A stretch of DNA of 64,000 nt from Saprospiraceae bacterium (GTDB lineage Bacteria > Bacteroidota > Bacteroidia > Chitinophagales > Saprospiraceae): assembly GCA_020631355.1 (NCBI GenBank), contig JAHDHL010000004.1, forward strand, positions 124,001 through 188,000. The letters run 5' to 3'. The position numbers and the translations under genes are program-made. Under the pieces are notes generated by a model. The model was not told the DNA's origin, searched no databases, and saw only the letters and a list, made by a program, of their open reading frames with translations. The stretch's first letter is position 1, and the number at the start of each line of letters is the position of its first letter. Positions 5,294 through 54,921 of this stretch are shown here, one piece after another.

Positions 5294-5305
5294 ACCAAAT
5301 TCGGA

Positions 5306-5989: not shown

Positions 5990-6046
5990 CACCAGAATCA
6001 ATACAGTCGACCGGATGATTCCACCCGGCCGACCATCATTATTATC

Positions 6047-6682: not shown

Positions 6683-6794
6683 TGTTTCAATATTTAATGG
6701 TTGAATTCATAACAATGAAATCAGAAGTCATATTGCCGCCGTTAAGAAAGTGTTAAAAAGGCAATATGGAATAAATCCCAAACTTGATGGGAGA

Positions 6795-7559
6795 TTAGAA
6801 GAAAGGAATGATAAATATTTTGGCAATGGCAAAAATAACGACGGTTACAAGTATCCTATGTGCCACAATCGCCGCCTTGGGATGTGAGGTTGCAAACTTG
6901 GAACTCACCCACGCTCCGGCAACCTGACCAATGGCAATCAATCCACCGGCTTTCCAATCCACATAACCGGATGTAGCGAAAAGTGCGAGGAGAATAATCG
7001 TATAGGTTCCGACAGAGACAATCTTCAGGGCATTGGCCGAAATGATGTCCATCTTACCCACTAGGACCGTAAAAGCCAGAAACAAAATCCCCATTCCCAT
7101 CTGAATGAATCCTCCATAAATTCCAAGGAGATAAAATCCGACCAACAATATGGGCATCGGAATATTAGACTTCTCACTTGGCGGATTAATCCAGCGCTTG
7201 GGCTTGACCAATACGACAAATAACATAACCACCATCAGAAATCCATATACATTCCTGAAATCCGCATCACTAACCCTGAATACCAGCCACAATCCTGTCA
7301 GGGCTCCCAATAATACCATAATGATATAGGGATAACTTCCTTTCCAGTCTATCTTACCTTCTTTATGGAACACCGTAGTGGAAACGGCACTTTGGAAAAG
7401 GATACCCACGCGATTAGAACCATTCGCAACTTTGGGAGGTAACCCCATCAGGTCCATCAGGATAAATAAGGTAATGGCCGAACCATTACCCGCAAGGGTA
7501 TTGATGAATCCGGCAGCAAATCCACCTAATATCGCCACAGGATAAATCCATAATTCCAT
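6795..7559 (-). CDS. TSUP family (TauE/SafE) membrane transporter
   Basis: 254-residue polytopic protein with about eight membrane helices, of the sulfite exporter TauE/SafE family, which move sulfite, sulfonates or other organic anions out of the cell. The first helix (PVAILGGFAAGFINTLAGNG) carries the family G-G-x-x-A-G-x-I-x-x-x-A-G-x-G signature, and the second half repeats it less strictly (YLLGIYGGFIQMGMGILFLA). Length is normal. The methylmalonyl-CoA epimerase gene lies 139 bases upstream on the same strand. The substrate is not evident. Confidence 0.88.
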   Translation of the reverse strand: MELWIYPVAILGGFAAGFINTLAGNGSAITLFILMDLMGLPPKVANGSNRVGILFQSAVSTTVFHKEGKIDWKGSYPYIIMVLLGALTGLWLVFRVSDADFRNVYGFLMVVMLFVVLVKPKRWINPPSEKSNIPMPILLVGFYLLGIYGGFIQMGMGILFLAFTVLVGKMDIISANALKIVSVGTYTIILLALFATSGYVDWKAGGLIAIGQVAGAWVSSKFATSHPKAAIVAHRILVTVVIFAIAKIFIIPFF

Positions 7560-7698
7560 ATAATATCAGATCAATGATTTTTCAGATGCCAATGAGTAGC
7601 GTCCGGAAGTTAGGGTTAGACCTCTTACCCACAACACTATCAACAAAGGAATGACATCTTTCCAACAAAGTTCATGCAATTCTTTGATTCACACGAAT

Positions 7699-8115
7699 TC
7701 ATTCCGTCTCTTTGGGTATTTCCTGACACAATTCCACCAAAACACCATTGGCACTCTTTGGATGGATGAAGCAAACCAACTTATTATCTGCTCCTCTTTT
7801 GGGTTCCTTGTTCAATAGTCTGAAGCCCTCTTTCTCCAATCGTTTCATCTCGGCATGAATATCCTCCACATCAAAAGCGATATGATGGATACCCTCTCCC
7901 TTTTTTTCCAGATACTTTGCAATCGCACTATGCTCCGAAGTAGCCTCCAACAATTCAATCTTATTATCACCCGCCTTGAAAAAAGAGGTCTTTACAAACT
8001 CAGAAGCCACTTCCTCTATCTTGTAATGCTCCACACCCAATAAGGCCTTGAATAATGCATTACTAGCTTCCAAATCCTTGACGGCAATACCAATATGTTC
8101 AATTTTACCCAACAT
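7699..8115 (-). CDS. mce: Methylmalonyl-CoA epimerase
   Basis: 138-residue vicinal-oxygen-chelate protein that interconverts (2R)- and (2S)-methylmalonyl-CoA, linking propionyl-CoA and succinyl-CoA metabolism. The metal ligands are in place: H7 in KIEHIGIAV, the second His in GIHHIAFDVEDI, and the C-terminal Glu in GVLVELCQE. The family's FFKAGDNKIELLEAT strand is also present. Length fits the single-chain form. A promoter-like TACCTTTG lies upstream at 8161-8168. Confidence 0.92.
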   Translation of the reverse strand: MLGKIEHIGIAVKDLEASNALFKALLGVEHYKIEEVASEFVKTSFFKAGDNKIELLEATSEHSAIAKYLEKKGEGIHHIAFDVEDIHAEMKRLEKEGFRLLNKEPKRGADNKLVCFIHPKSANGVLVELCQEIPKETE

Positions 8116-8426
8116 ATACTTCGTTTATTCAATGAATGATGGTAATAATATCTGCTTTCACAAAGGTAACGGAATGCAATCTAAACTGCCTATCTGGTAC
8201 AAAATATCTAATTTTGCAATCATGGATTGTAACTGACGGATTGGCTAGGATATTGTCATTTATCTATCCATAACTAATAGTAAATCAAAAAGATATTATA
8301 CAACCAGGTAAGAATTAGGGAATTGGACAGCTATTTGCTGGAACAGATACACAATATCATTCTATCAAAATCCATGAATTACCAATAATAATTCCTATTT
8401 TCAGCCTGTTTTCTAAACAAAATTTT
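8116..8426. other. Divergent intergenic region between mce and the acyltransferase gene
   Basis: About 310 bases without a gene. It holds the minus-strand TACCTTTG element for mce and, on the plus strand, a TAATTTTG at 8209-8216 followed six bases later by an ATG that opens only three codons. No further structure was seen. Confidence 0.4.
8161..8168 (-). promoter_or_regulatory. Promoter -7 element of mce
   Basis: The minus strand reads TACCTTTG, an exact match to the Bacteroidota -7 consensus TAnnTTTG, about 46 bases upstream of the mce start. No clear TTTG -33 box was found at 19-21 bases further upstream, so the element is a half-match. Confidence 0.45.
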
Positions 8427-9842
8427 ATGAGACAATTATCTGGACAAGATTCAATGTTCGTCTTCCTAGAGTCCAACAAGACTCCAATGCACATCGGAGG
8501 ACTGTACATCTTTGATTCTCCAGGAAAACGTTTTGAACTCAAGGATTTCAAGGATTTTATAGAAGAAAGACTCCATCTTTCACATATTTTCAGACAAAGA
8601 ATGATGGAAATGCCTCTGGACATGGGCACACCATTCTGGGTTGACGATCCTGATTTCGATATCGACCACCATATTTTCCATGTTGCCCTACCCCAACCGG
8701 GAGATAGGAAAGAATTGGTAAAATTGGCGGCCAATCTATACAGTCCACCCCTTGACCGTTCTCGTCCCCTATGGAAAGCTACCGTCATCACAGGCCTGAA
8801 TCTGGAGGAACTCTCAGAGGATGCCTTTGCTGTGTTGATACAGGTGCATCATGCTGCCATTGATGGAAAATCTGGCGTGGAAATCATGGCCTCCCTCTTT
8901 AGTATGACAGAGGAGCCATTCACACCGCCACCACCTGAAAAACCTTGGAAGCCCAGTAAGTTGCCGAACATGGCAGAATTATTTGCTGAAAGCTACGGTA
9001 AGCGAATCAAGAAGCCCAAGAAATTCCTCGAACTCATCAAGGACACCAATGCCAAGCAGAAAGAGTTGAAAAAGGAATTGGGTAAGGATCTGATGCAACT
9101 TCCACCAAGGCCCATGGCGGCACCCAAGACATTCATGAATGTACCGATGTCGGGCAAGAAGACATTCGGCGCCATTGATATTCCCCTAAAGGAAATCAAA
9201 AGCATCAAGAATGCAGTCGAGGGTGCTACCGTGAATGATGTGCTGCTGAGTGTTTGTGCTGGCGGTTTACGAAAGTACATGATCAAGCACGGCAGACTAC
9301 CCATTAAGAACCTGATTGGGTTGGCTCCCGTTTCCGTCAGGAAAGCCGACGAACAAGGGGATATGGGCAATCGTATCTCAGCGATGCTTTTCGATATGGC
9401 TACGAATGAAGTAGACCCTCTGAAACGGCTCGAATCGCTGAGGAAGCACACCCGTACATCAAAGACATACAGCCAAGCCCTACCGGCAGACCAAATCATG
9501 GAATTCGTTCCATCTGAAGTGGCGGCCATGGCAGGCAGATTATACCTGAGAATGGGATTATCCAAGTTACATAATCCTTTTTTCAACCTCATCATTACCA
9601 ATGTACCCGGACCACCAATTCCATTGTACCTGAATAAATTCAAGTTGCAAAGAATGTATGGTTTGGGAGCCGCAATGGACGGATTGGGATTGATGATCAT
9701 CATCTTCAGTTATGCAGGGACCATTTCCCTAAGTGTAACGGGAGATACCAATGCCCTTACCGATATGGAATTCTTTACGAGTTGCCTGAGGGAGGCCTAT
9801 AACGAGCTCAATGAAGCCGTCGAGGAAATCGGCGTTTCCTAA
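8427..9842 (+). CDS. Wax ester synthase / diacylglycerol acyltransferase (WS/DGAT)
   Basis: 471-residue member of the bacterial WS/DGAT family, which condenses acyl-CoA with fatty alcohols or diacylglycerol to make wax esters or triacylglycerol stores. The catalytic motif HHxxxDG is H141-H142-AAID-G147, and the N-terminus MRQLSGQDSMFVFLESN with PMHIGGLYIFD is family-typical. The PLW motif (RSRPLWKATV, 111-120) and the C-terminal NVPGPPIPLYL block are also present. Length matches the family (about 460-500). The alpha/beta hydrolase gene follows 44 bases downstream, probably in the same operon. Confidence 0.93.
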   Translation: MRQLSGQDSMFVFLESNKTPMHIGGLYIFDSPGKRFELKDFKDFIEERLHLSHIFRQRMMEMPLDMGTPFWVDDPDFDIDHHIFHVALPQPGDRKELVKLAANLYSPPLDRSRPLWKATVITGLNLEELSEDAFAVLIQVHHAAIDGKSGVEIMASLFSMTEEPFTPPPPEKPWKPSKLPNMAELFAESYGKRIKKPKKFLELIKDTNAKQKELKKELGKDLMQLPPRPMAAPKTFMNVPMSGKKTFGAIDIPLKEIKSIKNAVEGATVNDVLLSVCAGGLRKYMIKHGRLPIKNLIGLAPVSVRKADEQGDMGNRISAMLFDMATNEVDPLKRLESLRKHTRTSKTYSQALPADQIMEFVPSEVAAMAGRLYLRMGLSKLHNPFFNLIITNVPGPPIPLYLNKFKLQRMYGLGAAMDGLGLMIIIFSYAGTISLSVTGDTNALTDMEFFTSCLREAYNELNEAVEEIGVS

Positions 9843-20195: not shown

Positions 20196-22286
20196 TTATC
20201 CTTTTATCAATTTCCTAACAAAAGAACGACCATCCACTTCTATCCTAACGAAGTAGATACCATCAGCTTGATTGGAAATATCCATTCTTGTAATCTCATC
20301 ATTGGCATTCGTAGCGGCCACTTGTCTTCCCAATGCATCAAATACAAGGATATTGGTTTCCTTTCCTGTCTGATTCATTCTGATATCAAACCATCCATCG
20401 GAGGGATTAGGCATCATATTGAAATTCAGTTCATCCGCCAAGGTATTATCCACACTTGTACTTGAAGCTTCACTCACTCTGAATACATCGATTCCTGCAT
20501 CCACCAAGTGTCCTTCCAATGAAGTAACCTGATCGGATGTCGTCAGAATCAGGGTCATATTACTGGTTGGTGCCATATAATCAGCAATGACGAATTCCTT
20601 ATATACCCATTCTCCCAAATCAGGTGAATTGATATCCACTGTTTCCACAACCATGGTAGTGGATCCATTTGATAGAGAAATTTCCAATATATCGTCGGGT
20701 GTCGCACCTTGTCCACCTCCGGTCATGAACCAACGATAGAAGCTCACCTTAGGTTCCAGATATAAGGTCGCATCAAAAGATGGGGATGTGAGTGTAGTCG
20801 TACCATTATCCACATCATCGGAACCAGCAGTTCCTCCCGAGTTACCGGTCAGGTAACATCGTAGGCCAATATCATTATCCAAGTCATCACTTGGATCATA
20901 ATTGAATTCATCAAACTGGGAACCAATGGGAATTCCTCTCACCCAACTTCCTGTTTCTGCATTTCCTGTGGATGACCATCCCAAATCGAAGTAGAAATCA
21001 TCATAGTATTCCCTTTCCAACTCGAATGTATACGTTCCGTTTGCATTGAACGACATTCCCTCAAACAAGCGAGTTTCGTGCCCCCAACTTCCCACGTAGA
21101 CATCATAGTCTCCTGCGTAGATATCAGAAATCGTAAAATTACCATTGGCATTCGTAACCAAATCCAAACTCACCACACCATTCACATGCAATTTGGCATT
21201 CGGGATACCTTGTCCCGTTGCTGCATCGACAACCTGTCCGCTAAGTGCAAAAGGAGGTGTCGTGGTACAAGCAGGAGAACTCAGTAGACCTACCCTCCTA
21301 GGGCTATTGGCCAATACCGTCAGCATTCTAGCTTTCTGGTCATTCGTAAAGATATTCATGCAAAAATCAGCGGTATAATCCATATAATTCTCAATCATAT
21401 CCTCAGTATCACAAGACATTGTTCCTGATGGACAACCACCATTAGAGCCACCGGCGGCAGGTGTATCATTGCAATAATCATCCTGATTACAACCACCATC
21501 ACCCCATATATGACGCAATCCGAAGAAGTGGCCGGCCTCATGGGTCAATGTTCTTCCAAGGTTGTAGGTATCATCCATAATGAAAGTACCATCATCCAAA
21601 TCTATGGAACCGAAGAATTCCGCACCAATCACAACACCATCCGTATTGGCAGCTCCTCCTCCTAATCCGGGCAGTCCGGAAGAAGATGGGAATTGTGCAT
21701 AACCTAATAATCCAGGAGAAAGATTACAAACCCAAACATTGAAATATTCGTTGGGATTCCAAATCGTATTCGGTTTCATTTGTCCATCAGCACTACCCGA
21801 ATCCCAAGTATCTACCCCCAGATCCACCCGGTTGATTCCATTCGTGGGTAATCCTTGTGGGTCCAATTGTGCCAAGCAGAATTCGACTTCCACATCGGCT
21901 CCGGCCGGATGGTTGTTATACCCATTCGAACCCAGTGTTTTCCTAAAGTCCTCATTCAGGGCCGTCATCTGGGACAAGACCTGTGATGTGGAGATATTGG
22001 GTAACGAACCTACTGGTTCACCACTGTGGATGACATGCACCACTGTGGGAATGGTAATGATTCCTCTTTGCGAAAAATCCATATCTTTCATCTTGCGGGA
22101 CATCCATTCCTCAAAATCTGCCTCACTTTCTGCGCCAAAATGTTGTTGTCGCCACTCGTGCATATGAACAGTTCCACAACGCTCATCAATATGAGGTGCG
22201 GCAGGAATTGTGGATTGTGCTATTATGAATGATGATGCCAATAAAAGCACCGATATTGGGAATAACCTATTCAACATAGATTTCAT
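20196..22286 (-). CDS. Secreted pappalysin-like (M43) zinc metalloprotease with T9SS sorting domain
   Basis: 696 residues. Signal peptide 1-24 (LLLASSFIIAQ). M43 catalytic domain about 75-340 with zinc motif LTHEAGHFFGLRHIWGDGGC (H249, E250, H253, H259) and Met-turn NYMDYTADFCMN. A carboxypeptidase-regulatory-like beta domain follows (about 350-430: LSGQVVDAATGQGIPNAKLH), then a jelly-roll/MAM-like domain (about 430-610). The C-terminus is a type A T9SS sorting domain (NPSDGWFDIRMNQTGK, then GIYFVRIEVDGRSFVRKLI). It should be exported by Sec, carried across the outer membrane by T9SS and attached to the surface or released. Likely digests environmental protein. Confidence 0.93.
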   Translation of the reverse strand: MKSMLNRLFPISVLLLASSFIIAQSTIPAAPHIDERCGTVHMHEWRQQHFGAESEADFEEWMSRKMKDMDFSQRGIITIPTVVHVIHSGEPVGSLPNISTSQVLSQMTALNEDFRKTLGSNGYNNHPAGADVEVEFCLAQLDPQGLPTNGINRVDLGVDTWDSGSADGQMKPNTIWNPNEYFNVWVCNLSPGLLGYAQFPSSSGLPGLGGGAANTDGVVIGAEFFGSIDLDDGTFIMDDTYNLGRTLTHEAGHFFGLRHIWGDGGCNQDDYCNDTPAAGGSNGGCPSGTMSCDTEDMIENYMDYTADFCMNIFTNDQKARMLTVLANSPRRVGLLSSPACTTTPPFALSGQVVDAATGQGIPNAKLHVNGVVSLDLVTNANGNFTISDIYAGDYDVYVGSWGHETRLFEGMSFNANGTYTFELEREYYDDFYFDLGWSSTGNAETGSWVRGIPIGSQFDEFNYDPSDDLDNDIGLRCYLTGNSGGTAGSDDVDNGTTTLTSPSFDATLYLEPKVSFYRWFMTGGGQGATPDDILEISLSNGSTTMVVETVDINSPDLGEWVYKEFVIADYMAPTSNMTLILTTSDQVTSLEGHLVDAGIDVFRVSEASSTSVDNTLADELNFNMMPNPSDGWFDIRMNQTGKETNILVFDALGRQVAATNANDEITRMDISNQADGIYFVRIEVDGRSFVRKLIKG

Positions 22287-26323: not shown

Positions 26324-29300
26324 TTACCAAGCTCCTTTGACACGACTCTTAAACATTTCCGCAGAAACATCCGAAATCGGTTCGATGGTATACACACCAT
26401 CCTTACCCATCTTGAATTCCAAATCCTTTTTCTTCGCACCTGTAATGGCACTATTATAAAGCGGATTACTTGAACAGGTTTGCAACACTCCTTCCTTATA
26501 CTTGAAGTAGTAAAAGTGCCCACCATTCGAAGATGGGTTCTTGATATATACATGCATTCCATCCTCCTCGTTCCCCGGCATTCTGAATTCCACATAGGCT
26601 TCCACCATCTTATTAATCGTTTGGCCATTCACTTGCGACAAGCCTAGGATTTTCTTACTTGAAACCAAAGATTTCAAATCAGAATCCCATTTCATCGGGA
26701 GGTAACTAAAGAAGAACAGATGTTTTTCCGTATTGGGTAATGTGACCCGTGTCGTAGATCTATAGTTACCCACAATCTGTTTGTAACTCTTTTCATTCGA
26801 AGCAAAAGTTCCCACGACTTCCGGCACCATTTCCGCATAGGCCTTGGGCAGTTCTATATTCTTGACATCATAGGTATTCTGTTGCAAGTCCTTGACCATG
26901 GCCTTGACCGCATCCTCAGGCAATTTATAATTGATGGCGGCCATAAGATCCATTGCCAGTTTTTGCTTACCCAAAGAAACCGTACCTGTGGAATCCGTTG
27001 TCATCTGAGCTGCCTGAAGACTCGCCTGACCGGCTACTTTCGGCTTGAAGAATTTCACTCCTTGTCCGATATTGAACTCACCGGTTGCCCTACTTGATTT
27101 GGTAGTAGCATCCACTATATAAATGTTTCCTTTATAATTACCTGTAGTCAATTTCAATGAATCACCAAAAATGAACTGGTCCTTAGCCTTATCGTATTTG
27201 AATACCCCGGTCACATCCATCAATGCCCTATCCTTTCTTGAGAATAGGATTCCCATCACACTAGGGTAAGGGTAACCAGTCATCCTATCTATGAATAATC
27301 CGGTTTTCAAGGGTTCTCCTGCGGGGTTCTTAGGATTCTCATAAGCAATGGCCAGATTGTTCTTATCTCCCTTACTTCGTATCGTGAACCAATTCTTTTG
27401 CGGGAAATCCAATTCCAATTTGGCGTAGCCCTCAAAGTACAAGTCCTTTTCTTCGGAACTTAATGCAATCTCTCCCTTGTACAGGGTCTTATGGTCAATA
27501 TAGAATTCGTCCTTTCCTGTTACTTTCCCACTTGCTCTTGTAGCCAGGGTTTTCTCCGTACGCTTACCCTTTCCTACCGGAGCACCTACGATATTCGAGA
27601 ATTCGATTTCCTGCAGTTTATCCCCAACATTATACTCATAGAATCCCGATGCGGTATAGTCTCGTCCTCCCTTGATATCCACAGTAGCTCTGTTGATAGC
27701 GTGATATTTCGTCTTATCACTAGCGAGAATACGAGCATTGGTCAATGTAGCCATCTTACCACCCGCTGCAATCTCCACATCTCCTGTTTCCGGATAAACC
27801 AGTGCATCTGCTGTCTTGATGAATGGTACACCTCCAATCTTCAGGGTACTATTGGCTATATCATATTCGGCCGTGGCTCCCTGGAATCGTAGTGAATCAA
27901 GTTCAGGAGAGAGGAATTCATCCATTTTTCCTTCTTGGGCCTTGAATTCTACCTTCTCATTATTCATATCCCAAACAAACTCGTTCATCGAGGTCTTATA
28001 CTTGTTATAGGGCATCGATGTAGAAATCTCATCAGAATTGGCCTTGAATCGCCCTATCCCCTTATCGAAGTCCACTTCAGCACTCAAGTTCTTGGAATCA
28101 AAAGCCAACTCATCCTCCACACCTTCTGCCTTAATGGATAAGTTTGACGTATCTGCCTCTACTGAATAGGCTCCAAAAAGGAAGTTCTTCGAATTCATGG
28201 ATGCCTTATCCCAATCCAAAAGTCCATTTCCACGCAAACCACCCGGAGTCAGGATAAGTGTACCATCCAGTGTATGGAGTCCAGACTGGTAGAGTGCGAA
28301 AGGTGCTTCCTCCGGGGTAACATACATGGAATCCCTGTAAGGAATCCATTTCACCCTTACGTCGATACCCTTTACTTGCGGCAACTCAGGGAACGACCCC
28401 CTATTTTCTTCCAAGTCGAAACGACGGGCAGAGCAAGTCAGTTTCTTGGGACGGAAAATGATATCCTCCGAATCAATGGAAGCTGCAAGGTATCTCACAT
28501 TACCCTCTCCCTGGAAACCTGAATTATTCAATGTAATCTCTCCGGAAAACTGTCCCTTACCTTGGCTACTCTGATTCACATATGTTCCATATCCATCAGA
28601 TGGCGTATCGTGCACAAATCCAAGAGACTTATCCTCATCCATCAATACAATCTTTTCCTTGAACGGTAGGAAGATATCAGATGAATACATTTCACCATCG
28701 AATGCAACATCCTTGGGCATATAGAAATCCAGATTATTGAAACCGAATTCTTCCAATTGGAAATAGAATGAGTCCCTTTTGTATACCCCATCGAACAACT
28801 CTGGTCGGTCATAATAGACATAGCTATATCCCTTACTGGAAAATGATGGGAACATTGGAATATTCTCATTACTTGCCTTATTATTCGGAGCATCAATCAA
28901 TAAGTCACCCGATACTTTTTCTATCCTTGAGTCAATGGAATAGGCTATCGGATCATCATTCTCATCCAATTCTCCCGTATTTTCAAACAAATCGAAAAAA
29001 CGCACCGTATCCATACGGATTAGGAATCCGTCATAATCAAAGCGGAAATCCTTTCCTTGGAAAGAGCTCATCCCTGCGAATACCTTTCCATTGAATTCCA
29101 TGTTCCTATTCTTCTTGAGCAGCAACTCCTTATTCATTGGTTTGAATGCCACTTTCTGAACCTCACTCAATTCCACGAATCCCACATCCTTGATATCGAA
29201 AGGATTTTCGTTGGACTCATCGAGATAGAGATAACCATTGGTATCCCTTGTCTTGGAAATAATATTCACATTATCATAATCCGTTTTCTTTACGGCAGCC

Positions 29301-30874
29301 TTGGCATAATGCCTCAATTTTTCCTGTACATATACCGTTTTACTATCCTTGTCGTATTCTATGAATCCCTTGGACACCAAGGTATACAACAAACTATTGA
29401 TGGAAGAAACATCAAAATTAGGATTGATTTTCTTAGCTAATCCATCTGCATCCAAGGCATCGGAACCCATTTGTTTGGAATAGGCCATAATGACTGCAAT
29501 CGGATTCGTAGTGGAAATATTCTGGATTCCCCTGTAATCCCCCTCATTGAAATAATGCAAGGATTCAAACTTGGCAATCTTATCATTACCACCACCGACA
29601 CCCAGTGTTTTCTTGCCTACGACAATCGTATCGGATTCCAGCATCCAATCCAATTTATCCGCATCCAATCGGATACCGTGATAGGAATCGAAAAAAGGAT
29701 TACGGTCAGAACCCCTTTCTCCCCTTTTGATGGTTAGGTATTTATCAGCTATCTCAAACCTGATATTGGATGAGGGGTGGTAAATGGAATCTTGTCCGAA
29801 ATACAAGGATACTTCCGTTCCCTCACTCACAATCCTACCGATATCCTCCTTGATAACGAATTGTAGGGAATTGGCCCTCATCAAAGGGCGATTGGTTTTT
29901 CTGGAAAGCACCTTAATCTGAGCCCTGATATCCTTATCCCCATAACCATAGATAGTAGGACCATGTAATTTGAATCCTCCTTGGTATTCTATATCAGCTC
30001 CAATATTATCTATTTTCAGTAGTTTGTCATTGGATTCGAATCGGGGATATGTAGAAGTACTTCCCTTACTTTTCACAACGATACGATCCTCGAATCTTCC
30101 TTTGATAGGTGTATTCTTGAAGTATTTCGGAAAGAATAGAGTCGCATCATCACATGTATAGGTATTCTTTTTGACTTCGAATTGGTACTTATCCAACTTA
30201 ACGATAACACCCTCCATACCGATACGTTCCCAGGTTACCTGTCCCTTTTCGCCTTTCCATTCATCCAAGAATGGGAAATAAGAACCTGATGTCTGTGAAA
30301 TCTTGATGGAATCTTCCTTTCTGATACCATATAAATCCAAAGCAGGAAAATTGATTTCAAGTTGTTTATCCTTATACAGCAATTCATAACTCTGGGCTTC
30401 CACTCGCCACTCCGACCCTGCGGACTTACGAATGGATTTGGATTTGTAGAAATCCTTTGAAAATTTCAGGAAGTTCTTATAATTCTTGGAATTCCTATTT
30501 TCTATATCTGCAATGATATTTTGGCAAACCTCATTGAACTCATCCAATTTGGTTGATGATTTTTCGAAACTTGTGATATTATCCAACACTTCTATATAGG
30601 ATAAAAAGGCAGTCGGTTGCATCTTCTGCTTAATCATTGCATCACATACTGCATGGATGGATTTCTTCTGTTCGGGATTGAATGCTCCCGATTCGAATGT
30701 CTTCTTGAATTTTTTGAAAGCGACCTCAATCTTGTCCTGCTTATTCTTATTCATGTAAGCATCCAACTGACTGATGAATTCCTGCGGATTTTCGGAAAAT
30801 TCCTTGGGTGTCTGCGCTATCGCAACTAATGTAGTTAGGCAAAGGATGAAAATCAGTGTCAAACTTCTGATCAT
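26324..30874 (-). CDS. Giant exported beta-rich protein with winged-helix-like insert (1516 aa)
   Basis: ATG 30874 gives MIRSLTLIFILCLTTLVAIA, a signal peptide; an earlier start at 30919 adds 15 residues. Residues 22-150 are helical. From about 160 most of the chain is beta-strand repeats with FKLHGPTIYGYGD, FNGKVFAGMSSF and GEITLNNSGFQGEGNVRYLA-type segments, reminiscent of AsmA/OstA-like solenoids. Residues about 452-522 (NPIAVIMAYSKQMG, DADGLAKKINPNFDVSSINS, YTLVSKGFIEYDKDSKTVYV) look like a winged helix, odd in an exported protein. No membrane anchor or T9SS signal is seen at the C-terminus. I recall similar large uncharacterised Bacteroidota proteins but no function. Probably periplasmic. 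Confidence 0.75.
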   Translation of the reverse strand: MIRSLTLIFILCLTTLVAIAQTPKEFSENPQEFISQLDAYMNKNKQDKIEVAFKKFKKTFESGAFNPEQKKSIHAVCDAMIKQKMQPTAFLSYIEVLDNITSFEKSSTKLDEFNEVCQNIIADIENRNSKNYKNFLKFSKDFYKSKSIRKSAGSEWRVEAQSYELLYKDKQLEINFPALDLYGIRKEDSIKISQTSGSYFPFLDEWKGEKGQVTWERIGMEGVIVKLDKYQFEVKKNTYTCDDATLFFPKYFKNTPIKGRFEDRIVVKSKGSTSTYPRFESNDKLLKIDNIGADIEYQGGFKLHGPTIYGYGDKDIRAQIKVLSRKTNRPLMRANSLQFVIKEDIGRIVSEGTEVSLYFGQDSIYHPSSNIRFEIADKYLTIKRGERGSDRNPFFDSYHGIRLDADKLDWMLESDTIVVGKKTLGVGGGNDKIAKFESLHYFNEGDYRGIQNISTTNPIAVIMAYSKQMGSDALDADGLAKKINPNFDVSSINSLLYTLVSKGFIEYDKDSKTVYVQEKLRHYAKAAVKKTDYDNVNIISKTRDTNGYLYLDESNENPFDIKDVGFVELSEVQKVAFKPMNKELLLKKNRNMEFNGKVFAGMSSFQGKDFRFDYDGFLIRMDTVRFFDLFENTGELDENDDPIAYSIDSRIEKVSGDLLIDAPNNKASNENIPMFPSFSSKGYSYVYYDRPELFDGVYKRDSFYFQLEEFGFNNLDFYMPKDVAFDGEMYSSDIFLPFKEKIVLMDEDKSLGFVHDTPSDGYGTYVNQSSQGKGQFSGEITLNNSGFQGEGNVRYLAASIDSEDIIFRPKKLTCSARRFDLEENRGSFPELPQVKGIDVRVKWIPYRDSMYVTPEEAPFALYQSGLHTLDGTLILTPGGLRGNGLLDWDKASMNSKNFLFGAYSVEADTSNLSIKAEGVEDELAFDSKNLSAEVDFDKGIGRFKANSDEISTSMPYNKYKTSMNEFVWDMNNEKVEFKAQEGKMDEFLSPELDSLRFQGATAEYDIANSTLKIGGVPFIKTADALVYPETGDVEIAAGGKMATLTNARILASDKTKYHAINRATVDIKGGRDYTASGFYEYNVGDKLQEIEFSNIVGAPVGKGKRTEKTLATRASGKVTGKDEFYIDHKTLYKGEIALSSEEKDLYFEGYAKLELDFPQKNWFTIRSKGDKNNLAIAYENPKNPAGEPLKTGLFIDRMTGYPYPSVMGILFSRKDRALMDVTGVFKYDKAKDQFIFGDSLKLTTGNYKGNIYIVDATTKSSRATGEFNIGQGVKFFKPKVAGQASLQAAQMTTDSTGTVSLGKQKLAMDLMAAINYKLPEDAVKAMVKDLQQNTYDVKNIELPKAYAEMVPEVVGTFASNEKSYKQIVGNYRSTTRVTLPNTEKHLFFFSYLPMKWDSDLKSLVSSKKILGLSQVNGQTINKMVEAYVEFRMPGNEEDGMHVYIKNPSSNGGHFYYFKYKEGVLQTCSSNPLYNSAITGAKKKDLEFKMGKDGVYTIEPISDVSAEMFKSRVKGAW

Positions 30875-31018
30875 AGCAGATGAGTTTTCTTTAGTGTGTA
30901 GTAAGCTATCTGAAAACAACTCGTCTCATCGGTTGATGAAAGCATTAACAGACCACTTCATTCATAAAATGGGTTAGGGACGGCATTCATGCGTGGTTCC
31001 TAAGCTATACTTGGGCGT

Positions 31019-33431: not shown

Positions 33432-36400
33432 TTAGTTGGATAGTGACAATTTTCTCAGTGTCTCTGTCAAGCTATAATTACTAGGATTCTTCATTGAATT
33501 ATTCTTGAATATTTTCCCTTCCTTATCAATGATAAAAGCAGAAGGCAACTGCTTGACTCCATAATCCGTAGCAACTCCGGAACCTAACGAGCCTTTCGCA
33601 TACAAATGTACTCCTGTAATCTTATGTCTCTTGACATAACTTCTCCATTCGTTTTCTGTATAATCCGTTGAAATGTATACGAATACGACATCCTGCCCCT
33701 TGAACTTTCGCCTCATTTCAGTCGTGTTTGAAATCTGTCTGGTACAAGGTGTACACCAAGTAGCCCAGAAATCAAGATAAACGGCCTTTCCTTTGAAATC
33801 ACCTAAGGATACTTCCTTACCATTGACATCCACCAGTGTAAAATCTGGAGCTGACATACCCGGCAGTAATGTTTTGGAAGCTCTCAATTCGGACTTTATG
33901 GATTCCTTATATTCCTGATATGGACAATAATCCATGAACATTTTCACGTCAAATATCACATCGGATAGCTGCCCATTCCTACAGGAGGATGCCAATCTTT
34001 GTGCCTTGTAGAAATATTGGACCTCTCCTTCGAGGTATTTATCCGCCAGTTCCAACTTGGTCAAACCAAGATTCTCAGGTTCCTTACTCTTATCATCCAA
34101 GAACACATCCACATACTGAGCGAAATACTCATTGGGTAATGCCAGGGAGTTATTCACCTGTATATCCTCAGTGAAATCATAGTAGGATTTATCCCTGATG
34201 GTCATAGGAGAAAGCATATTGAAGTTCAATGGATGTTCCCAACGATAATTGGTCAGGTTATAGGCGTACCAATAATCAATACTTGCCTTGGCATATTGTG
34301 AGAAATCGAATGAGAAATTAGGCATTCTGGTATTATAGAAATCCACCTTATCCTTGTGGATTTTCTTAAGGAAATTCTTGAATGCCCTTGGATTTCTTTC
34401 GGAATACACCTTTCCGGTTGCTTCCTTATCCTGATTGGTGAACTTGGTTCTTAACTCCTTGAGGAAGTTATTGTGTTCACCTCCGGTGCCATTGAATCTG
34501 AGTGAATTCAAGAAATCGGAAGCGGAGAATTCCACATTGATATTATTACCCGGCTCGATGAAAAGTTCAACGATTCTAGCACCATATTCCATCTTACCAA
34601 TGGTAGGTCCTGTAATAATCAATTTGGTAGAGAATGTACCATCTGGTTTGACGTATAAATTGTACGTCACTTCCCTCATGGATACGGGGTCAGGATATAG
34701 AATAACCTTAGCCAGTTTGGTTCGGTGGTTGGTAATTCTACCACTGAATTGCACCTCCATCTTAGGTTGTTCGATGGCAGTCATATCTATCATTTCCAAT
34801 AACTGAGCTGCAGTGAGGGTCCCTCTCACCTCTCTCGTTTTTACTTCGGCTACATCTATGACACCAATTTCCTTAGTGGATTCAAACCCTTTCTCAAAGA
34901 ACTCCTTACATTGCTTTTCTGCATCAGCAGTTGTCAATCCCAATGCGATACCATCCAATACACACTCCTCGATATCATCCAATTGGAAAGGATTCTTTTT
35001 TGGAGCGCTGACTGCCTTGGACGGAGACACGGTCGATGGCATTTCCGTTGCGGTCAGGTTAGTGGAAGTTTCTATTGGCTTGGGAGTCGTATCCGGCTCA
35101 GAGGATGGTGTGGAAGTACCAGCCAAAGCAGCAGCTTCAGCAGCCTTTTTGGCTTCTTCCTCTTCTTTCTTCTTTTGGGCTTCAGCATCCTTTTGTTGCT
35201 GAGCCAGAAGTCTTGCAGCTTCTTCAGCAGCTTCCCGGTCCGCTTTTTCCTTAGCAATCCTAGCTCTTTCTTCTTTCTGGGCAGCAATCCTTGCTTCCTT
35301 GGCCTCTTTCTTTTGGAGAGCAGCGGCTTCTTTCTCTTTCCTCCTCTTGATGGCAGCTTCCTGAGCAGCAGCATAACGAGCTGCTTCTTCGGCAGCTTTT
35401 CTCTGTTGCTCCTCTTCCTTTTCCAATCGCTTTGCTTCCTTAGCAGCAGCTACGGCCTTGGCATTGGCTTCTTTCTTCTCTTGTGCCTTTTGTCTTTCTA
35501 TTCGCTTCGCTTCCTTGTTGGCTGCGATTTCGGCAGCTCGTTTTGCTTTGGCTTCTTCCTTTGCAAGGCGTTTTGCTTCTTGTTCGGCTTTCTTCTTGGC
35601 TTCTGTTTCAGCAGCCAGTCTTGCTTCTTCCTCGGCCTTTTCCTTTGCAGCCTTGATTTCTGCCAATTTTTGGGCTTCTTCTTCCTTTCTCTTTTCTTCC
35701 TCCGCTATTCTCGCAGCTTCCTCCTCAGCTTTCTTCTTCACCTCAGCTTCAGCCGCCAGTCTAGCTTCTTCAGCCGCCTTTTCTTTTTGTGCCTTGATAT
35801 CAGCTAATTTTTGAGCTTCTTCCTCTGCCTTTATCTTAGCTGCCAATGCTTCAGCTTCTTCTTCAGCTTTTTTCTTCGCCTCCGCCTCTGCAGCCAAGCG
35901 TTTTGCTTCCTCCTCTTTCTGCTTTGCAGCAAGCATTTCCGTAGGATCTTCTTTTTCTTGATTGATATCTCTCCTTAAGGCAGCATTAAAAGCCTCCTGT
36001 ATAGCCACATCATATTCCTTATAAGGATTGCTATTGATAAAACGCTTAACATCCTGTTCGATTTCGGATGGCTCGGAACTCTGGCATTTCCAGAAGATAT
36101 CACTCGCCTTGGAGTAAAACAAAGCCCTGCCTGTCAGATACATATCAGAATTACTATCGGTCTGAGCAGTAGGTTGTTCAACAGGAACGGTCTTATATAC
36201 CTTTTGTATGGATTTCTTTTCTTCCAGTTCAATTCCACCACCGAAGACCCAACCGATTCTTCCGTCTGGAGCCTCAATCTTATAGAAGTGGTCATTGTAG
36301 GATAAACCTCTTAGTGTAAAGGTGTAACGTTGTACTGACTTCCTACCCAAGTAAACCAGCTCCTCTCCCTCATTGGCCAATCCAAGTGCACTTGGAAGAT

Positions 36401-38843
36401 CTGGTTCTTTTCTGATTCTCAATCTATCCACCTTGACCGTTGCAACGGTTCTTGTGATTTCCTTTTCCTCCTCAACGGTTTTGAATCTTTGGTTGATTGA
36501 AACGTTCTTATCCTCTACTCCATTCAGAGTACCTGCTCCTCCGAATACCCAACCGATGAATCCGTCATTGGTTCCTACCTGATACCAATAGTCGGTTTTC
36601 ATCACACCATTGACCATTTTCCTTGTTGTCGTTGGTGATTTTACATTCAGATATTTTACAGTCTCACCACTGAAAAGATTGGTGATGGGTGTTGTTCCTC
36701 CCGGAGCACTCATTACCTCCTCGTTATTCACAATGGATTTAAAAGCTCCCTGTCTGATTTGATGGATGATATTACCATCAGGACTATCCCTTCTTAATTT
36801 TAAATATAAATCCAAGAATGAGAGATAGGATTTACTAGCAATGGCATCATCATTACTAATTAATACTTTTCCGAGGAAATTATAATAAACAGCATCTATC
36901 TTCATTGGATAAGGCAAACCATTTGCAGCGGGATGCTCCCAATGATATCTCAATAAATTATATGCCCACCAATATTCAATTTCTGCAGTAATATATTTTG
37001 AAAATCCTCTTGAGAATTTTTGCTTTTCAGAAAAATCATATTGATGATAAAAATTCCATTTTTTCCTACGGATTTTATCCATTAAAAATCGATAATTAGA
37101 TGGTTGCTGATTTACAATTTTATTGTAAACCTCATTATCATCATAATTAACAAATTCCATATTTAATTGATGCAGAAAATTATTTTGCGGACCGCAATCC
37201 CCATCAAAAGTCAAACTATTTAAAAAAGAATTTCCTTTGAAATTAATTTTTAAATGGTCACCCGGTTCAATAAATATTTCTGCTTCCTTACCATCATAAA
37301 TTAATTTAGCCATGGTAGGACGAGCAATATCAAATACTAAATCAAATTCATTTCTTGAATTAAGATTTAATGTCAATGATTCTTCCTCAAATGAAAATCT
37401 ATTTTTATAAAAAACCACATCTATGGACTTCGAAGTAGGATTTTCCACTACCCCTTTTAATTCCGTGCTTTTGGGTATTCCCATAGCATATGTCGTGGAA
37501 CGGGGCAGTGCTCGCTTAAGCATGGGGTTGGAATTAACCGGTGTACTTGTCCTTGGTCTCTGAGTAGTTGAGCTGGAGGAATTACTAGCGACGGAAGTTG
37601 CAGTTGAGGGAGTACTACCGAATTTCCTTGAGAAATCCTCCTCTATGCAAGCCTTGAATTGGGGGTTTTTGGAAGTATTCAAAAATGCATCAAAATCTGC
37701 TTGGGTATAAGGCAATGAACCATTCCTTACACTTTTATGCAATTCTTTCGCTACATAAAATTCAAGTACCTCACCTTTCAAATGCTTTCCTGCATCATTA
37801 TATTTCCCTGCTCTGGATATTTTACCCAAATCAGAATCATCTGCACTTTTCACAAAATCAATTCCACCTTCGATAATCCAACCAATTTGTCCGGAAGCAG
37901 TCCTTACCTTAATCCAAGGTGTTGTTATTTTTTTCCCTCTGGTATAAACTTGTGAAGTTACAGAAGAACGGTCTTTTAAATATTCAAGAATTTCACCATT
38001 CGTTACCGTACCGATTTTTGCACCTGTTTTAGGTTCATCACGAAGTGTCAGACTATTTGATTCTACCCTTACATTATATTTTTTCAAAGCCTCACTTCCG
38101 TGATCTTTTCTGTAGGATAAATATTCGTCAATAAATTTGTGATAATTCTTATTATTTAATCCATTAGGATTCTGAACAGGCACCTTATCCAAAAAAGTAT
38201 AATAACTTTTAGGTAAGACAACCGGACCGGGTTTCAAATTCGCCTTAGGATTTTCAAAACGATATCGCAATAAATTATAAGCCCACTTATAATCTATTTC
38301 TGATTTTAAATAATTCCTAAAATGATATGAAATTCCCGTTATTGAATTTTTCTGGAAAAATAAAAACATTTCTTTATGGACATTATCCATATAAGATCGA
38401 TAATCGGAATGGCTTTTATGGGCCATTTCGTAGATAAAGAAATTATCGGTGTATTTACCGAATTCCTTTTCATAAAAATCAAGGACCTTATTATTACTGC
38501 TTCCTTTTCCAGAAAAAGAAAAGGTATATTCAAATTGACGAGCGTCAAAATTTATATTCAGATTATCTCCGGGCTCAATAAATAACTGCTTCGTTTTTGA
38601 ACCATAACGAACCTCTACGATTTTAGGCTTGTCAATATCCAAGTCAGAAGTAAATTCATTCGCACCATTGAGTGCAATTACATTTTCCTTGACTACCCCG
38701 GATACCAAATCATTTTCCCAAAGAAAACTCACGGAATAAAAATCCGGATTTTTCACCTCTCCCGAAATCGTAGTTGTTTGTGCAGTTATTTGGAGTACGA
38801 ATATAAGAGATAATATTATTGATATTAAAATATGTCTTATCAT
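33432..38843 (-). CDS. Giant three-module protein: DUF4369-like/helical repeats, SH3 domains, coiled coil and TlpA-type thioredoxin (1803 aa)
   Basis: Signal peptide 1-22. Three modules repeat: a beta-sandwich with LFIEPGDNLNINF (88-99), IFIEPGDHLKINF (523-535) and LFIEPGNNINVEF (1427-1439); a helical part with IDYKWAYNLLRYRFENP (183-199), IEYWWAYNLLRYHWEHP (622-638) and IDYWYAYNLTNYRWEHP (1522-1538); then a helical tail. Between helical part and tail, modules 1 and 2 carry bacterial SH3-type domains (about 258-330, 695-775, 800-875), each ending in (G)WIIEGG or GWVFGG. An Ala/Glu/Lys coiled coil fills 963-1240. Module 3 ends in a TlpA/ResA-type thioredoxin (1658-1800) with WCTPC at 1696-1700 and the cis-Pro in KQLPSAF. 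Likely periplasmic, thiol oxidoreductase, probably peptidoglycan- or protein-bound through SH3. The gene's N-terminal part is AT-rich. Followed by the SanA-like gene. Confidence 0.85.
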   Translation of the reverse strand: MIRHILISIILSLIFVLQITAQTTTISGEVKNPDFYSVSFLWENDLVSGVVKENVIALNGANEFTSDLDIDKPKIVEVRYGSKTKQLFIEPGDNLNINFDARQFEYTFSFSGKGSSNNKVLDFYEKEFGKYTDNFFIYEMAHKSHSDYRSYMDNVHKEMFLFFQKNSITGISYHFRNYLKSEIDYKWAYNLLRYRFENPKANLKPGPVVLPKSYYTFLDKVPVQNPNGLNNKNYHKFIDEYLSYRKDHGSEALKKYNVRVESNSLTLRDEPKTGAKIGTVTNGEILEYLKDRSSVTSQVYTRGKKITTPWIKVRTASGQIGWIIEGGIDFVKSADDSDLGKISRAGKYNDAGKHLKGEVLEFYVAKELHKSVRNGSLPYTQADFDAFLNTSKNPQFKACIEEDFSRKFGSTPSTATSVASNSSSSTTQRPRTSTPVNSNPMLKRALPRSTTYAMGIPKSTELKGVVENPTSKSIDVVFYKNRFSFEEESLTLNLNSRNEFDLVFDIARPTMAKLIYDGKEAEIFIEPGDHLKINFKGNSFLNSLTFDGDCGPQNNFLHQLNMEFVNYDDNEVYNKIVNQQPSNYRFLMDKIRRKKWNFYHQYDFSEKQKFSRGFSKYITAEIEYWWAYNLLRYHWEHPAANGLPYPMKIDAVYYNFLGKVLISNDDAIASKSYLSFLDLYLKLRRDSPDGNIIHQIRQGAFKSIVNNEEVMSAPGGTTPITNLFSGETVKYLNVKSPTTTRKMVNGVMKTDYWYQVGTNDGFIGWVFGGAGTLNGVEDKNVSINQRFKTVEEEKEITRTVATVKVDRLRIRKEPDLPSALGLANEGEELVYLGRKSVQRYTFTLRGLSYNDHFYKIEAPDGRIGWVFGGGIELEEKKSIQKVYKTVPVEQPTAQTDSNSDMYLTGRALFYSKASDIFWKCQSSEPSEIEQDVKRFINSNPYKEYDVAIQEAFNAALRRDINQEKEDPTEMLAAKQKEEEAKRLAAEAEAKKKAEEEAEALAAKIKAEEEAQKLADIKAQKEKAAEEARLAAEAEVKKKAEEEAARIAEEEKRKEEEAQKLAEIKAAKEKAEEEARLAAETEAKKKAEQEAKRLAKEEAKAKRAAEIAANKEAKRIERQKAQEKKEANAKAVAAAKEAKRLEKEEEQQRKAAEEAARYAAAQEAAIKRRKEKEAAALQKKEAKEARIAAQKEERARIAKEKADREAAEEAARLLAQQQKDAEAQKKKEEEEAKKAAEAAALAGTSTPSSEPDTTPKPIETSTNLTATEMPSTVSPSKAVSAPKKNPFQLDDIEECVLDGIALGLTTADAEKQCKEFFEKGFESTKEIGVIDVAEVKTREVRGTLTAAQLLEMIDMTAIEQPKMEVQFSGRITNHRTKLAKVILYPDPVSMREVTYNLYVKPDGTFSTKLIITGPTIGKMEYGARIVELFIEPGNNINVEFSASDFLNSLRFNGTGGEHNNFLKELRTKFTNQDKEATGKVYSERNPRAFKNFLKKIHKDKVDFYNTRMPNFSFDFSQYAKASIDYWYAYNLTNYRWEHPLNFNMLSPMTIRDKSYYDFTEDIQVNNSLALPNEYFAQYVDVFLDDKSKEPENLGLTKLELADKYLEGEVQYFYKAQRLASSCRNGQLSDVIFDVKMFMDYCPYQEYKESIKSELRASKTLLPGMSAPDFTLVDVNGKEVSLGDFKGKAVYLDFWATWCTPCTRQISNTTEMRRKFKGQDVVFVYISTDYTENEWRSYVKRHKITGVHLYAKGSLGSGVATDYGVKQLPSAFIIDKEGKIFKNNSMKNPSNYSLTETLRKLSLSN

Positions 38844-38992: not shown

Positions 38993-40168
38993 CTAATCGT
39001 ATAGGAACGTTCCCTTTTCATTTACTATACTCACCATCTCTTTCTCAGCATTTTCCACTCGCCCTATAATTTGAGCATCAATATTGAATGATTTTGATAA
39101 ATCAATCAATTCCTTTGCTGTGGTTTCGTTGGTGTAAACCTCAAGTCTGTGTCCCATATTAAACACCTGGTACATTTCTTTATCAGTTGTTCCTGACTCT
39201 TTCTGAATCAAATCAAAAAGAGGTGGGGTTGGGAAAAGATTGTCCTTAATGACATGCTTTCCCTTTATGAATTTTTGCACTTTGGTTTGTGCCCCTCCGG
39301 TACAGTGTATCATCCCATGAATGGATTGTTTATCCAATTCCAACATTTTCAATATTAAAGGGATGTAAGTACGTGTTGGGGACAAGACCAATTTGCCTAC
39401 ATTAATCTCCTCTCCGTTAATTGTAACCGTATCATCTAATTGCTTGCTTCCTGTGAAGATGACCTCCCTTGGTGTATTCGGGTCATAACTATCCGGAAAC
39501 TTTTCTGCATACAATTTAGAAAAGACGTCATGTCTGGCCGAAGTGAGTCCGTTACTTCCCATTCCACCATTGTACTCATCCTCATAAGAAGCGGTTCCAT
39601 ATGATGCAAAACCCACAACGACATCGCCGGCTTGTACGTCATTAATCACCAAATCCGAACGTTTCATTCTTGCGAATGTGGTATACCCCACATCGATGGT
39701 ACGAACGATATCACCAACATCGGCAGTTTCTCCTCCGGCAAGATGAATTCTTACTCCGTGGTCCGCCATTCTATCACAAAACTCAACTGCAGCATTGATG
39801 ATTGTTGCAATCACATCACCTGGAATCAGATTCTTATTCCTACCAATGGTAGAAGAAAGAACGATATCCTGAACTGCTCCGACACATGCCATATCATCAA
39901 CATTCATCACTATCGCATCCTGTGCGATTCCTTTCCACACACTCAGGTCACCGGTTTCTTTCCAGTACATGTAAGCCAAGCTGGACTTCGTACCTGCGGT
40001 ATCAGCATGCATGATATTGCAATAATCGGAATCCATTCCAACGATATCCGGCAGAATCTTACAAAATGCATTAGGATATAATCCCTTATCCAAATGTTTG
40101 ATTGCCTGATGAACCTCATCCTTGGTAGCTGAAACGCCTCTCAAATCGTAACGATACTTGTCGGCCAT
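38993..40168 (-). CDS. purM: Phosphoribosylformylglycinamidine cyclo-ligase PurM (Bacteroidota type)
   Basis: 391-residue AIR synthase, the fifth step of purine synthesis, ATP-dependent ring closure of FGAM. The PurM fold is clear: HADTAGTKSSLAYMYW, NVDDMACVGA, LAGGETADVGDIVRTIDVG, and later IHCTGGAQTKVQKF. It is longer than the about 345-residue E. coli enzyme, as usual in this phylum. Preceded by an AIR-type promoter element at 40192. Confidence 0.92.
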   Translation of the reverse strand: MADKYRYDLRGVSATKDEVHQAIKHLDKGLYPNAFCKILPDIVGMDSDYCNIMHADTAGTKSSLAYMYWKETGDLSVWKGIAQDAIVMNVDDMACVGAVQDIVLSSTIGRNKNLIPGDVIATIINAAVEFCDRMADHGVRIHLAGGETADVGDIVRTIDVGYTTFARMKRSDLVINDVQAGDVVVGFASYGTASYEDEYNGGMGSNGLTSARHDVFSKLYAEKFPDSYDPNTPREVIFTGSKQLDDTVTINGEEINVGKLVLSPTRTYIPLILKMLELDKQSIHGMIHCTGGAQTKVQKFIKGKHVIKDNLFPTPPLFDLIQKESGTTDKEMYQVFNMGHRLEVYTNETTAKELIDLSKSFNIDAQIIGRVENAEKEMVSIVNEKGTFLYD

Positions 40169-52692: not shown

Positions 52693-54921
52693 TTAAGCAC
52701 CCTCGTCAAGGAAGAAAGAGGTATCTTCTTGTGTATCAGAATTGTTATTATAATCCGTCGGTAGAGAGATGGTGAATTGGGAGCCAATTCCTTCTTCAGA
52801 TTCAACGGCAATACTACCATTGAGTCGTTCTATTATCTTCATACAAATGGCTAATCCTATACCTGAACCGCTGTAATGGCTTCTTTTGTGTAGTCTTTGG
52901 AAAACAACGAAAATTCGGCCAAGGGCATCTGCGGGAATACCGATTCCGTTGTCCTTGATGGAAATATGATGTTCATTGTCGAGCATTTCATATCCGACCC
53001 TGACTTCAGGGGGTACACCTTGTTTCTTGAATTTTATGGCGTTACTAATAAGATTCTGGAACAATTGGGAAACATAAGCCCTATTGGTCTGTATGGTAGG
53101 TAGAGTATCGGCTATAATCTTGGCTTCGCTCTCCTCTATCACCAATTTCAGATTGAACAGGGTAACATCGAGGATTTCCTTGAGATTGACTTCCTCCAAA
53201 TCCAACTCATCACTCTTGCCGATGGTTGCATACTTTAGTAGATCGTCAAGGAGAAGCGTCATTCTACTTACTCCCTCATTCACATATTTGAAAAACTCCG
53301 TGGATGAGTCATCCAATTGGGGGGCGTATCGTCTTTCGATTAATTGGGAATAACTGCCTATCATACGGAGCGGCTCCTTGAGGTCATGGGATACGGCATA
53401 GGCAAACTGCATCAAATCATTATTGACATCTATCAATTTCTTGTTCTGTGCCACAATCCTATCGTGTTGGGAGGCCAAGGTATCCTTATACTTGGTCAGT
53501 AGTTCGATTTCCTTTTCCTTTTGTTGGAAATCATATCGGATTTCGATATCTATAATCTGCCGATTCCTTTGGTCCAATGCATATCTTTCCTGAGCCTGGG
53601 AATAAACCAGCTGATACTCAAGCGCCTTTTCGAAATTACCTTTTTCCTTGAAGATATTGGACATGAGTCTGTAGCCCCTGATTTCACTGACACTATCCTT
53701 GACCTGCTTAGCAGAAACAACTCCCTTACCAACATATTTCATCGCCAAGTCATGGTCACCCAGTCTATAATAGATATTACCCAGCGTGATGTAATTGATT
53801 TGCTTACCCTCTATATTCCCTGTCTCCTCGATGAGTTCTTCTGAACGGAAAGCATAGGAAAGTGCTTCCTCATATTTCTTTTGTTCCACCAATGTCCTAC
53901 TGATCTGGGCCAATGTGTGGGCTTTCATTTCATTATAACAGATGGACTCTGCCAGAGCCAATGATTTTTCGAAGTATTCCAATGCATCATCCAGCTTACC
54001 AACAGTGAAGTAAATATTACCCACATTATTCATGATAATCAGTCCTGTACTATCATCCAACACATCCTCATATTCCTCGAGAACCGTCATATATCGGTCC
54101 AGGGCCTCATTATAATTGAAAAGATTGGCATAGATGGTTCCGATATTAATCAGACAGTAGGCAGTACCGTAACGATAATTGATTTCGACGCTCTTATCCA
54201 GTGCATTCCTAAAATACAGCATGGCCATCTTGAAATCGTACTTCGTACCATGATATACTGCTATGGCATTCAAGCCAATGAATTCCTTTTCATTATCATC
54301 GTATTTACGACTCAATTCCAAGGTTTTTTCACTGTATTCCATTATCTCACCATACTCATGTTTCCTGAGATAAATCCTAACGGCTTGGGAGTAGATATCC
54401 AACAATAATATCTCATCTTCCTGTTCCACTAAGGATAGCATCTCATCCACATAAGAGACGGCTTCATCATATTCATTCTGGAGATAATGGAATTCACTTA
54501 TGGCGAGTGAAAGGTTCACTTTTCGCCTGAGGGATTCATTGGTAATTTCTTCCTGGCTGTGGCAATGTGTGAGTAATTCATCCGCTATTTCATAATGTCC
54601 TAATAACAGATGAGTATGTGCCATCTTCAGGTAGGTTTCCCAACGAAGAATGGCGGCATCCTTGGGTAGTATCTTCAACGCATCCTCCAGATAGTCAAGG
54701 GAAGAAAGGTATAATTCATTCTCATTCTGATACCTTCCTTGGGTATTATTGATATCCACGATGAGATGGAGTACCCTTGCATTCTCATCAATCCGCCCCG
54801 TTTCACTGACCTGTTCTAGCAGTAGTCTGGCATAGGACATAGATTCATCAAACCTCCTCTTGGAGAGAGAAAGTTGGGCATTATGAAATTCCTGAATTGT
54901 TATGACAGACTGATCAGACAT
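52693..54921 (-). CDS. Cytosolic TPR-containing sensor histidine kinase
   Basis: 742 residues. Helical tetratricopeptide array about 5-440 (NVGNIYFTVGKLDDALEYFE, YITLGNIYYRLGDHDLAMKY), coiled coil about 440-500, HisKA with phosphoacceptor H512 in AVSHDLKEPLRMIG, and HATPase domain about 600-730 (NLISNAIKFKK, DNGIGIPADALGRIF, GSGIGLAICMKII). No membrane segment and no attached receiver, so an internal signal or protein partner is implied. Ends with FFLDEGA. A response regulator gene is not adjacent. Confidence 0.9.
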   Translation of the reverse strand: MSDQSVITIQEFHNAQLSLSKRRFDESMSYARLLLEQVSETGRIDENARVLHLIVDINNTQGRYQNENELYLSSLDYLEDALKILPKDAAILRWETYLKMAHTHLLLGHYEIADELLTHCHSQEEITNESLRRKVNLSLAISEFHYLQNEYDEAVSYVDEMLSLVEQEDEILLLDIYSQAVRIYLRKHEYGEIMEYSEKTLELSRKYDDNEKEFIGLNAIAVYHGTKYDFKMAMLYFRNALDKSVEINYRYGTAYCLINIGTIYANLFNYNEALDRYMTVLEEYEDVLDDSTGLIIMNNVGNIYFTVGKLDDALEYFEKSLALAESICYNEMKAHTLAQISRTLVEQKKYEEALSYAFRSEELIEETGNIEGKQINYITLGNIYYRLGDHDLAMKYVGKGVVSAKQVKDSVSEIRGYRLMSNIFKEKGNFEKALEYQLVYSQAQERYALDQRNRQIIDIEIRYDFQQKEKEIELLTKYKDTLASQHDRIVAQNKKLIDVNNDLMQFAYAVSHDLKEPLRMIGSYSQLIERRYAPQLDDSSTEFFKYVNEGVSRMTLLLDDLLKYATIGKSDELDLEEVNLKEILDVTLFNLKLVIEESEAKIIADTLPTIQTNRAYVSQLFQNLISNAIKFKKQGVPPEVRVGYEMLDNEHHISIKDNGIGIPADALGRIFVVFQRLHKRSHYSGSGIGLAICMKIIERLNGSIAVESEEGIGSQFTISLPTDYNNNSDTQEDTSFFLDEGA

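Follow-up and report, generated by a model that had tools for sequence, protein, structure and literature searches.

A lineage-wide Saprospiraceae variant of TlpA/ResA-type proteins combining SH3-bearing repeat modules with a single thioredoxin domain

The 64,000-nt stretch of DNA analysed here (the window; Saprospiraceae bacterium GCA_020631355.1, contig JAHDHL010000004.1, positions 124,001-188,000), to which the coordinates refer, carries a gene for a 1803-residue protein that opens with a hydrophobic signal-peptide-like stretch and is laid out, with M for module, S for SH3 domain and T for tail, as M-S-T-M-S-S-T-spacer-M-T-thioredoxin (Table 1). The lipobox pattern is absent from this protein and from nearly all its relatives. 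Since the protein has a signal peptide but no T9SS tail, it is taken to be periplasmic. An assembly artefact could be ruled out, because the SH3-module layout recurs in 43 genes, each from a different genome. Elsewhere in the window, 26324-30919 (-) encodes a 1531-residue exported protein that has no Pfam or NCBIfam match, is 59-68% identical within the genus and keeps a fixed order with prmA, tpiA and a sanA-like gene, and 20196-22286 (-) encodes a likely T9SS-secreted metalloprotease with a Por_Secre_tail domain.

Table 1. Features of the SH3-thioredoxin gene and its upstream neighbour, in window coordinates
Feature	Position	Strand	Basis
Whole gene, 1803 aa	33432..38843	-	single uninterrupted ORF
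Signal-peptide-like N-terminus, aa 1-22, without lipobox	38778..38843	-	sequence inspection and pattern
Module 1, beta-sandwich and helical part, aa 23-246	38106..38777	-	HMM, BLAST
Module 1 SH3 domain, aa 261-333	37845..38063	-	Pfam SH3_3, family HMM
Module 1 helical tail, aa 351-407	37623..37793	-	BLAST, family HMM
Module 2, beta-sandwich and helical part, aa 459-685	36789..37469	-	BLAST, HMM, AlphaFold
Module 2 first SH3 domain, aa 704-776	36516..36734	-	Pfam, family HMM, model, structure search
Module 2 second SH3 domain, aa 804-876	36216..36434	-	Pfam, family HMM, model, structure search
Module 2 helical tail, aa 899-955	35979..36149	-	BLAST, HMM, AlphaFold
Ala/Glu/Lys-rich helical spacer, aa 968-1247	35103..35942	-	composition, salt-bridge test, TRF
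Module 3, beta-sandwich and helical part, aa 1363-1586	34086..34757	-	BLAST, HMM, AlphaFold
Module 3 helical tail, aa 1600-1656, two Cys	33876..34046	-	BLAST, HMM, alignment
TlpA/ResA-type thioredoxin domain, aa 1661-1799	33447..33863	-	Pfam, structure search
WCTPC active site, Gln third after second Cys	33744..33758	-	sequence/alignment
purM-like (AIRS) upstream neighbour, conserved	38993..40168	-	Pfam, NCBIfam

An earlier note on this DNA had read the protein as three homologous modules that arose by internal triplication, and this was borne out by self-BLAST of residues 1-440, 441-985 and 1340-1803, in which block 1 aligned with block 2 at E=6e-47, block 2 with block 3 at E=1.9e-38 and block 1 with block 3 at E=1.6e-24, the helical tails of the three blocks aligning as separate segments. 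AlphaFold models, built on alignments from the SH3-thioredoxin protein family, reached a mean pLDDT of 91.5 for module 2 with both SH3 domains and of 92.0 for module 3 with the thioredoxin; they agree with the shared fold claimed for the modules, since modules 2 and 3 show an identical eight-strand sandwich followed by a matching helix series, in the same strand and helix order. In the model of module 2, the SH3 strands precede the last three (tail) helices. Structure searches placed the module 2 sandwich close to transthyretin (Z about 9, rmsd 2.6, 86 aligned residues); the matches covered only the SH3 and transthyretin-like parts of module 2 and only the thioredoxin of module 3, and the helical part of both modules had no solved match among the matches listed, which does not imply a novel fold. 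The description of the sandwich as DUF4369-like is right, with marked divergence: the window protein itself gives no match to DUF4369 (PF14289) at the Pfam gathering score, but relatives do, with matches in 10 of the 37 rows of an alignment that consists largely of single-module relatives (best 1.1e-6) and in 5 of 45 SH3-bearing modules (best 0.0013). Because the window protein is unmatched while relatives with the same module match, the module is, as judged from these profiles, a divergent relative of DUF4369.

The SH3_3 family (PF08239) matches the protein with 61.6 bits, where the cut-off is 27, and falls into three stretches, in accord with the one and two SH3 domains that had been proposed for copies 1 and 2, and the model of the SH3 part of module 2 fits SH3 structures in the structure search. 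The further proposal that SH3 domains replaced the thioredoxins of the front copies failed. The SH3 domains lie between the helical part and the tail, upstream of the tail, and the thioredoxin lies downstream of it, so the SH3 domains did not take the place of the thioredoxin; moreover, two relatives (G024 and G227) carry both, as module-SH3-tail-thioredoxin within one unit of 610-615 residues. The insertion position and these two proteins rule out a literal replacement; by this positional evidence, the front copies gained SH3 domains in one event and came to lack a thioredoxin in a separate one. A single SH3 domain closely related to those of the window protein also occurs in other Saprospiraceae proteins (L128-L136), mostly with lipoprotein-like N-termini.

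The 280-residue spacer before module 3 is rich in Ala, Glu, Lys and Arg. Its Lys-to-Glu i/i+3,4 pairs number 67 versus 36 +/- 4 in shuffles, about twofold, and its helical hydrophobic periodicity shows no excess over shuffled sequence. Given doubled salt-bridge pairs without such periodicity, a single charged helix would suit the spacer better than a coiled coil. A 141-bp tandem repeat extends over part of its length (TRF). Among relatives, 63 to 407 residues separate the SH3-bearing part from the last module; most of these spacers are rich in Lys, Glu, Pro and Ser, with Ala/charged spacers present also in G077 and G102, which belong to two other lineages. The TolA-like long spacer noted previously is present here, as an Ala/charged helix, but it is not general among relatives, and a Pfam scan of the window protein at E up to 10 found no TolA family. 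A short helical motif precedes module 3 (aa 1291-1312; window 34908-34973, -); it reads (E)ELDLLALGYTPDEA in most genus members and is changed here, with two Cys, to IEECVLDGIALGLTTADAEKQC.

The architecture had been suggested as worth seeking in other genomes, and SH3-bearing relatives occur in 39 of the 248 genomes sampled across Saprospiraceae and in four further genus members, and the resulting 43 SH3-bearing genes all come from this one family, the named matches being Saprospiraceae metagenome-assembled genomes. No SH3-bearing form was seen outside Saprospiraceae in samples of 249 genomes from the order and 296 from the phylum. Beyond the family, profile searches of the order and phylum detected the module only in single-module frames of ~440-625 residues (about 480 aa), and the frames fetched from there contained no SH3 domain. 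Three modules occur in three genomes only (that of the window, G006 and G214) and most members have two; one detectable module is present in G024 and G227, described above, in G077 and G176, as module-SH3-tail-spacer-thioredoxin, and in G102, whose gene is cut by contig ends. The reading of a single gene made by triplication holds for the window protein, and the triplicate is the rarer form among proteins that have between one and three modules.

A phylogeny of 94 modules unites the SH3-bearing ones in a clade (98/95) and keeps the thioredoxin-bearing last modules separate from it. Backbone supports in this tree are modest. Since the first modules from the three triplicate proteins cluster (89/93), the additional copy could be an early gain that sister species lost later. 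Within the genus, the SH3 part seems to have been lost secondarily in one member, since the G008 gene (L020:231-1847) has a signal peptide, a spacer remnant and one module with thioredoxin, and no SH3 domain; this gene starts near a contig end. In G003 (L013:8715-9290 and 5299-8772), the first module contains a frame break, which is either a sequence error or a pseudogene.

In the window and in 36 of the 42 SH3-bearing relatives (37 of 43), the gene lies just downstream of a purM-like gene of the same orientation, as do 4 of 14 SH3-less entries, one of them only a gene fragment from a genus member. The neighbour, whose NCBIfam score falls under the cut-off of that model, looks like a housekeeping purM by its profile matches and points to no partner. 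In L013, L016, L017 and L018, a relative of the window histidine kinase (52693-54921) stands between GT4 and purM, a place that it does not occupy in the window. The locus also bears on whether the repeat expansion was largely neutral, with modules and spacer coming and going without a specific role. Module number and spacer do differ even inside one genus, and the tandem repeat in the spacer would suit such a history; nevertheless, we consider it very improbable, as the SH3-plus-thioredoxin layout and the purM synteny persist over many genera despite strong divergence.

The single terminal thioredoxin with WCTPC that had been recognized in copy 3 is matched by AhpC-TSA/Redoxin at aa 1661-1787 (Pfam), and its structural neighbours are ResA and DsbE-like structures (Z 20-22). 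WAxWCxxC and the cis-Pro are invariant in 46 of 46 aligned last modules, and G102, outside this set, has ETGCPPC at the active site. With the domain, the WCxxC and the cis-Pro, the window protein belongs to the TlpA/ResA-type thioredoxin superfamily. Related single modules with a thioredoxin lacking CxxC, apparently redox-dead, are found in the same class (L119, L120, L121, L123, L124 and L125). A conventional ResA/CcmG-like apocytochrome c reductase with extra domains would be in keeping with the nearest structures, ResA and a DsbE-like protein, and with the intact CxxC; however, we find this account improbable, given that the position of ResA Glu80, third after the second Cys, is Gln in the window protein and Glu in none of the 39 SH3-bearing members, that ResA E80Q is deficient (PMC5909903, from which the role of Glu80 in ResA-type reduction is taken), and that the gene adjoins purM, not cytochrome genes. 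Therefore, from the residues at this position, ResA-type cytochrome c reduction by the SH3-bearing proteins appears unlikely. Glu is present there in 10 of 12 close SH3-less relatives and in 22 of 43 single-module paralogues with a readable site; since the position also varies in distant paralogues, the loss of Glu80 probably marks altered chemistry or substrate and not a trait unique to the SH3 architecture. Two Cys positions are occupied in 28/46 and 25/46 of the thioredoxin-adjacent tails and in 6/45 and 6/45 of the SH3-bearing tails, as raw counts that ignore kinship, and this enrichment suggests that the tail Cys may serve the thioredoxin; both occur together in only 17/46, a count that bears on a putative disulfide between them.

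With the architecture, module homology, predicted fold, distribution, synteny, CxxC conservation and Glu80 loss demonstrated as above, we propose that this member of the TlpA/ResA superfamily may act in the periplasm as a thiol-disulfide oxidoreductase that putative wall binding keeps close to peptidoglycan, a proposal to which we give an even chance. The ancestor would have been a module-tail-thioredoxin protein of about 480 aa, probably already beside purM because of the synteny, and internal duplication would have followed, in which the front copy or copies, without thioredoxin, acquired bacterial SH3 domains, one or two each, at the junction of helical part and tail, and the last copy retained the active-looking CxxC thioredoxin. 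The SH3 modules, we infer, dock on murein, the variable spacer, helical here, may extend the reach of the single thioredoxin, and the repeated sandwich/helical modules could be binding platforms for clients or for each other. The loss of the Glu80 equivalent would favour substrates other than apocytochrome c, and the reaction is plausibly disulfide reduction or reshuffling in wall-associated exported proteins.

Docking on murein is suggested by the SH3 pair, which resembles the tandem SH3 of the NlpC/P60 peptidase 3npf, YrvJ and the phage endolysin 4krt, the nearest solved structures being mostly cell-wall enzymes. The same structural matches weigh against the possibility that the SH3 domains and the extra modules form a scaffold for particular envelope proteins, not murein, with the thioredoxin serving that complex. 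SH3 folds can bind peptides and proteins as well as glycans, the nearest SH3 relatives in sister genomes are lipoprotein-like proteins without assigned function and not wall hydrolases, and the front modules are kept as a clade, all of which would fit a scaffold; we regard it as possible, though clearly less probable than the wall-held oxidoreductase. A bolder form of the latter, which we think unlikely, would make the protein a murein-anchored redox arm and the founder of a new class of periplasmic machines: its repeated SH3-bearing carrier modules would attach it to the wall, and the spacer would serve as a ruler that determines the place at which the single non-cytochrome thioredoxin acts on wall-associated proteins.

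One largely syntenic locus offers a natural series of one to three modules, none to two SH3 domains per module and spacers of tens to hundreds of residues, in which it can be traced stepwise how a multidomain envelope enzyme grew. If the wall binding is true, this would be, to our knowledge, the first thioredoxin tied physically to peptidoglycan via SH3 domains, and it would suggest that disulfide chemistry takes place at the cell wall of Bacteroidota. The earlier statement that no protein of this layout had been described agrees with the open-access literature, in which no description of the SH3-thioredoxin combination was found, most subscription papers lying outside that coverage. The SH3-thioredoxin protein is real and lineage-wide, a variant of the common TlpA/ResA-type proteins that has no description in that literature; each of its parts is known.

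Among known systems, TolA domain II is a long Ala/Lys/Glu-rich periplasmic helix that resembles the spacer, but no homology was found, the likeness is one of spacer composition only and the spacer is not conserved among orthologues. The SH3b cell-wall enzymes, such as the NlpC/P60 protein 3npf and the endolysin 4krt, share the tandem bacterial SH3 domains, although they bear a hydrolase catalytic domain where the window protein has a thioredoxin. ResA, CcmG (DsbE) and StoA share the thioredoxin fold and CxxC; however, the window protein is without the Glu80 equivalent, those proteins are without the N-terminal modules, and ResA and StoA are membrane anchored, unlike the window protein. The DUF4369-thioredoxin (TlpA-like) proteins of Bacteroidota, of about 480 aa, have the same module, tail and C-terminal thioredoxin, and differ from the window protein in having one module and neither SH3 domains nor a spacer.
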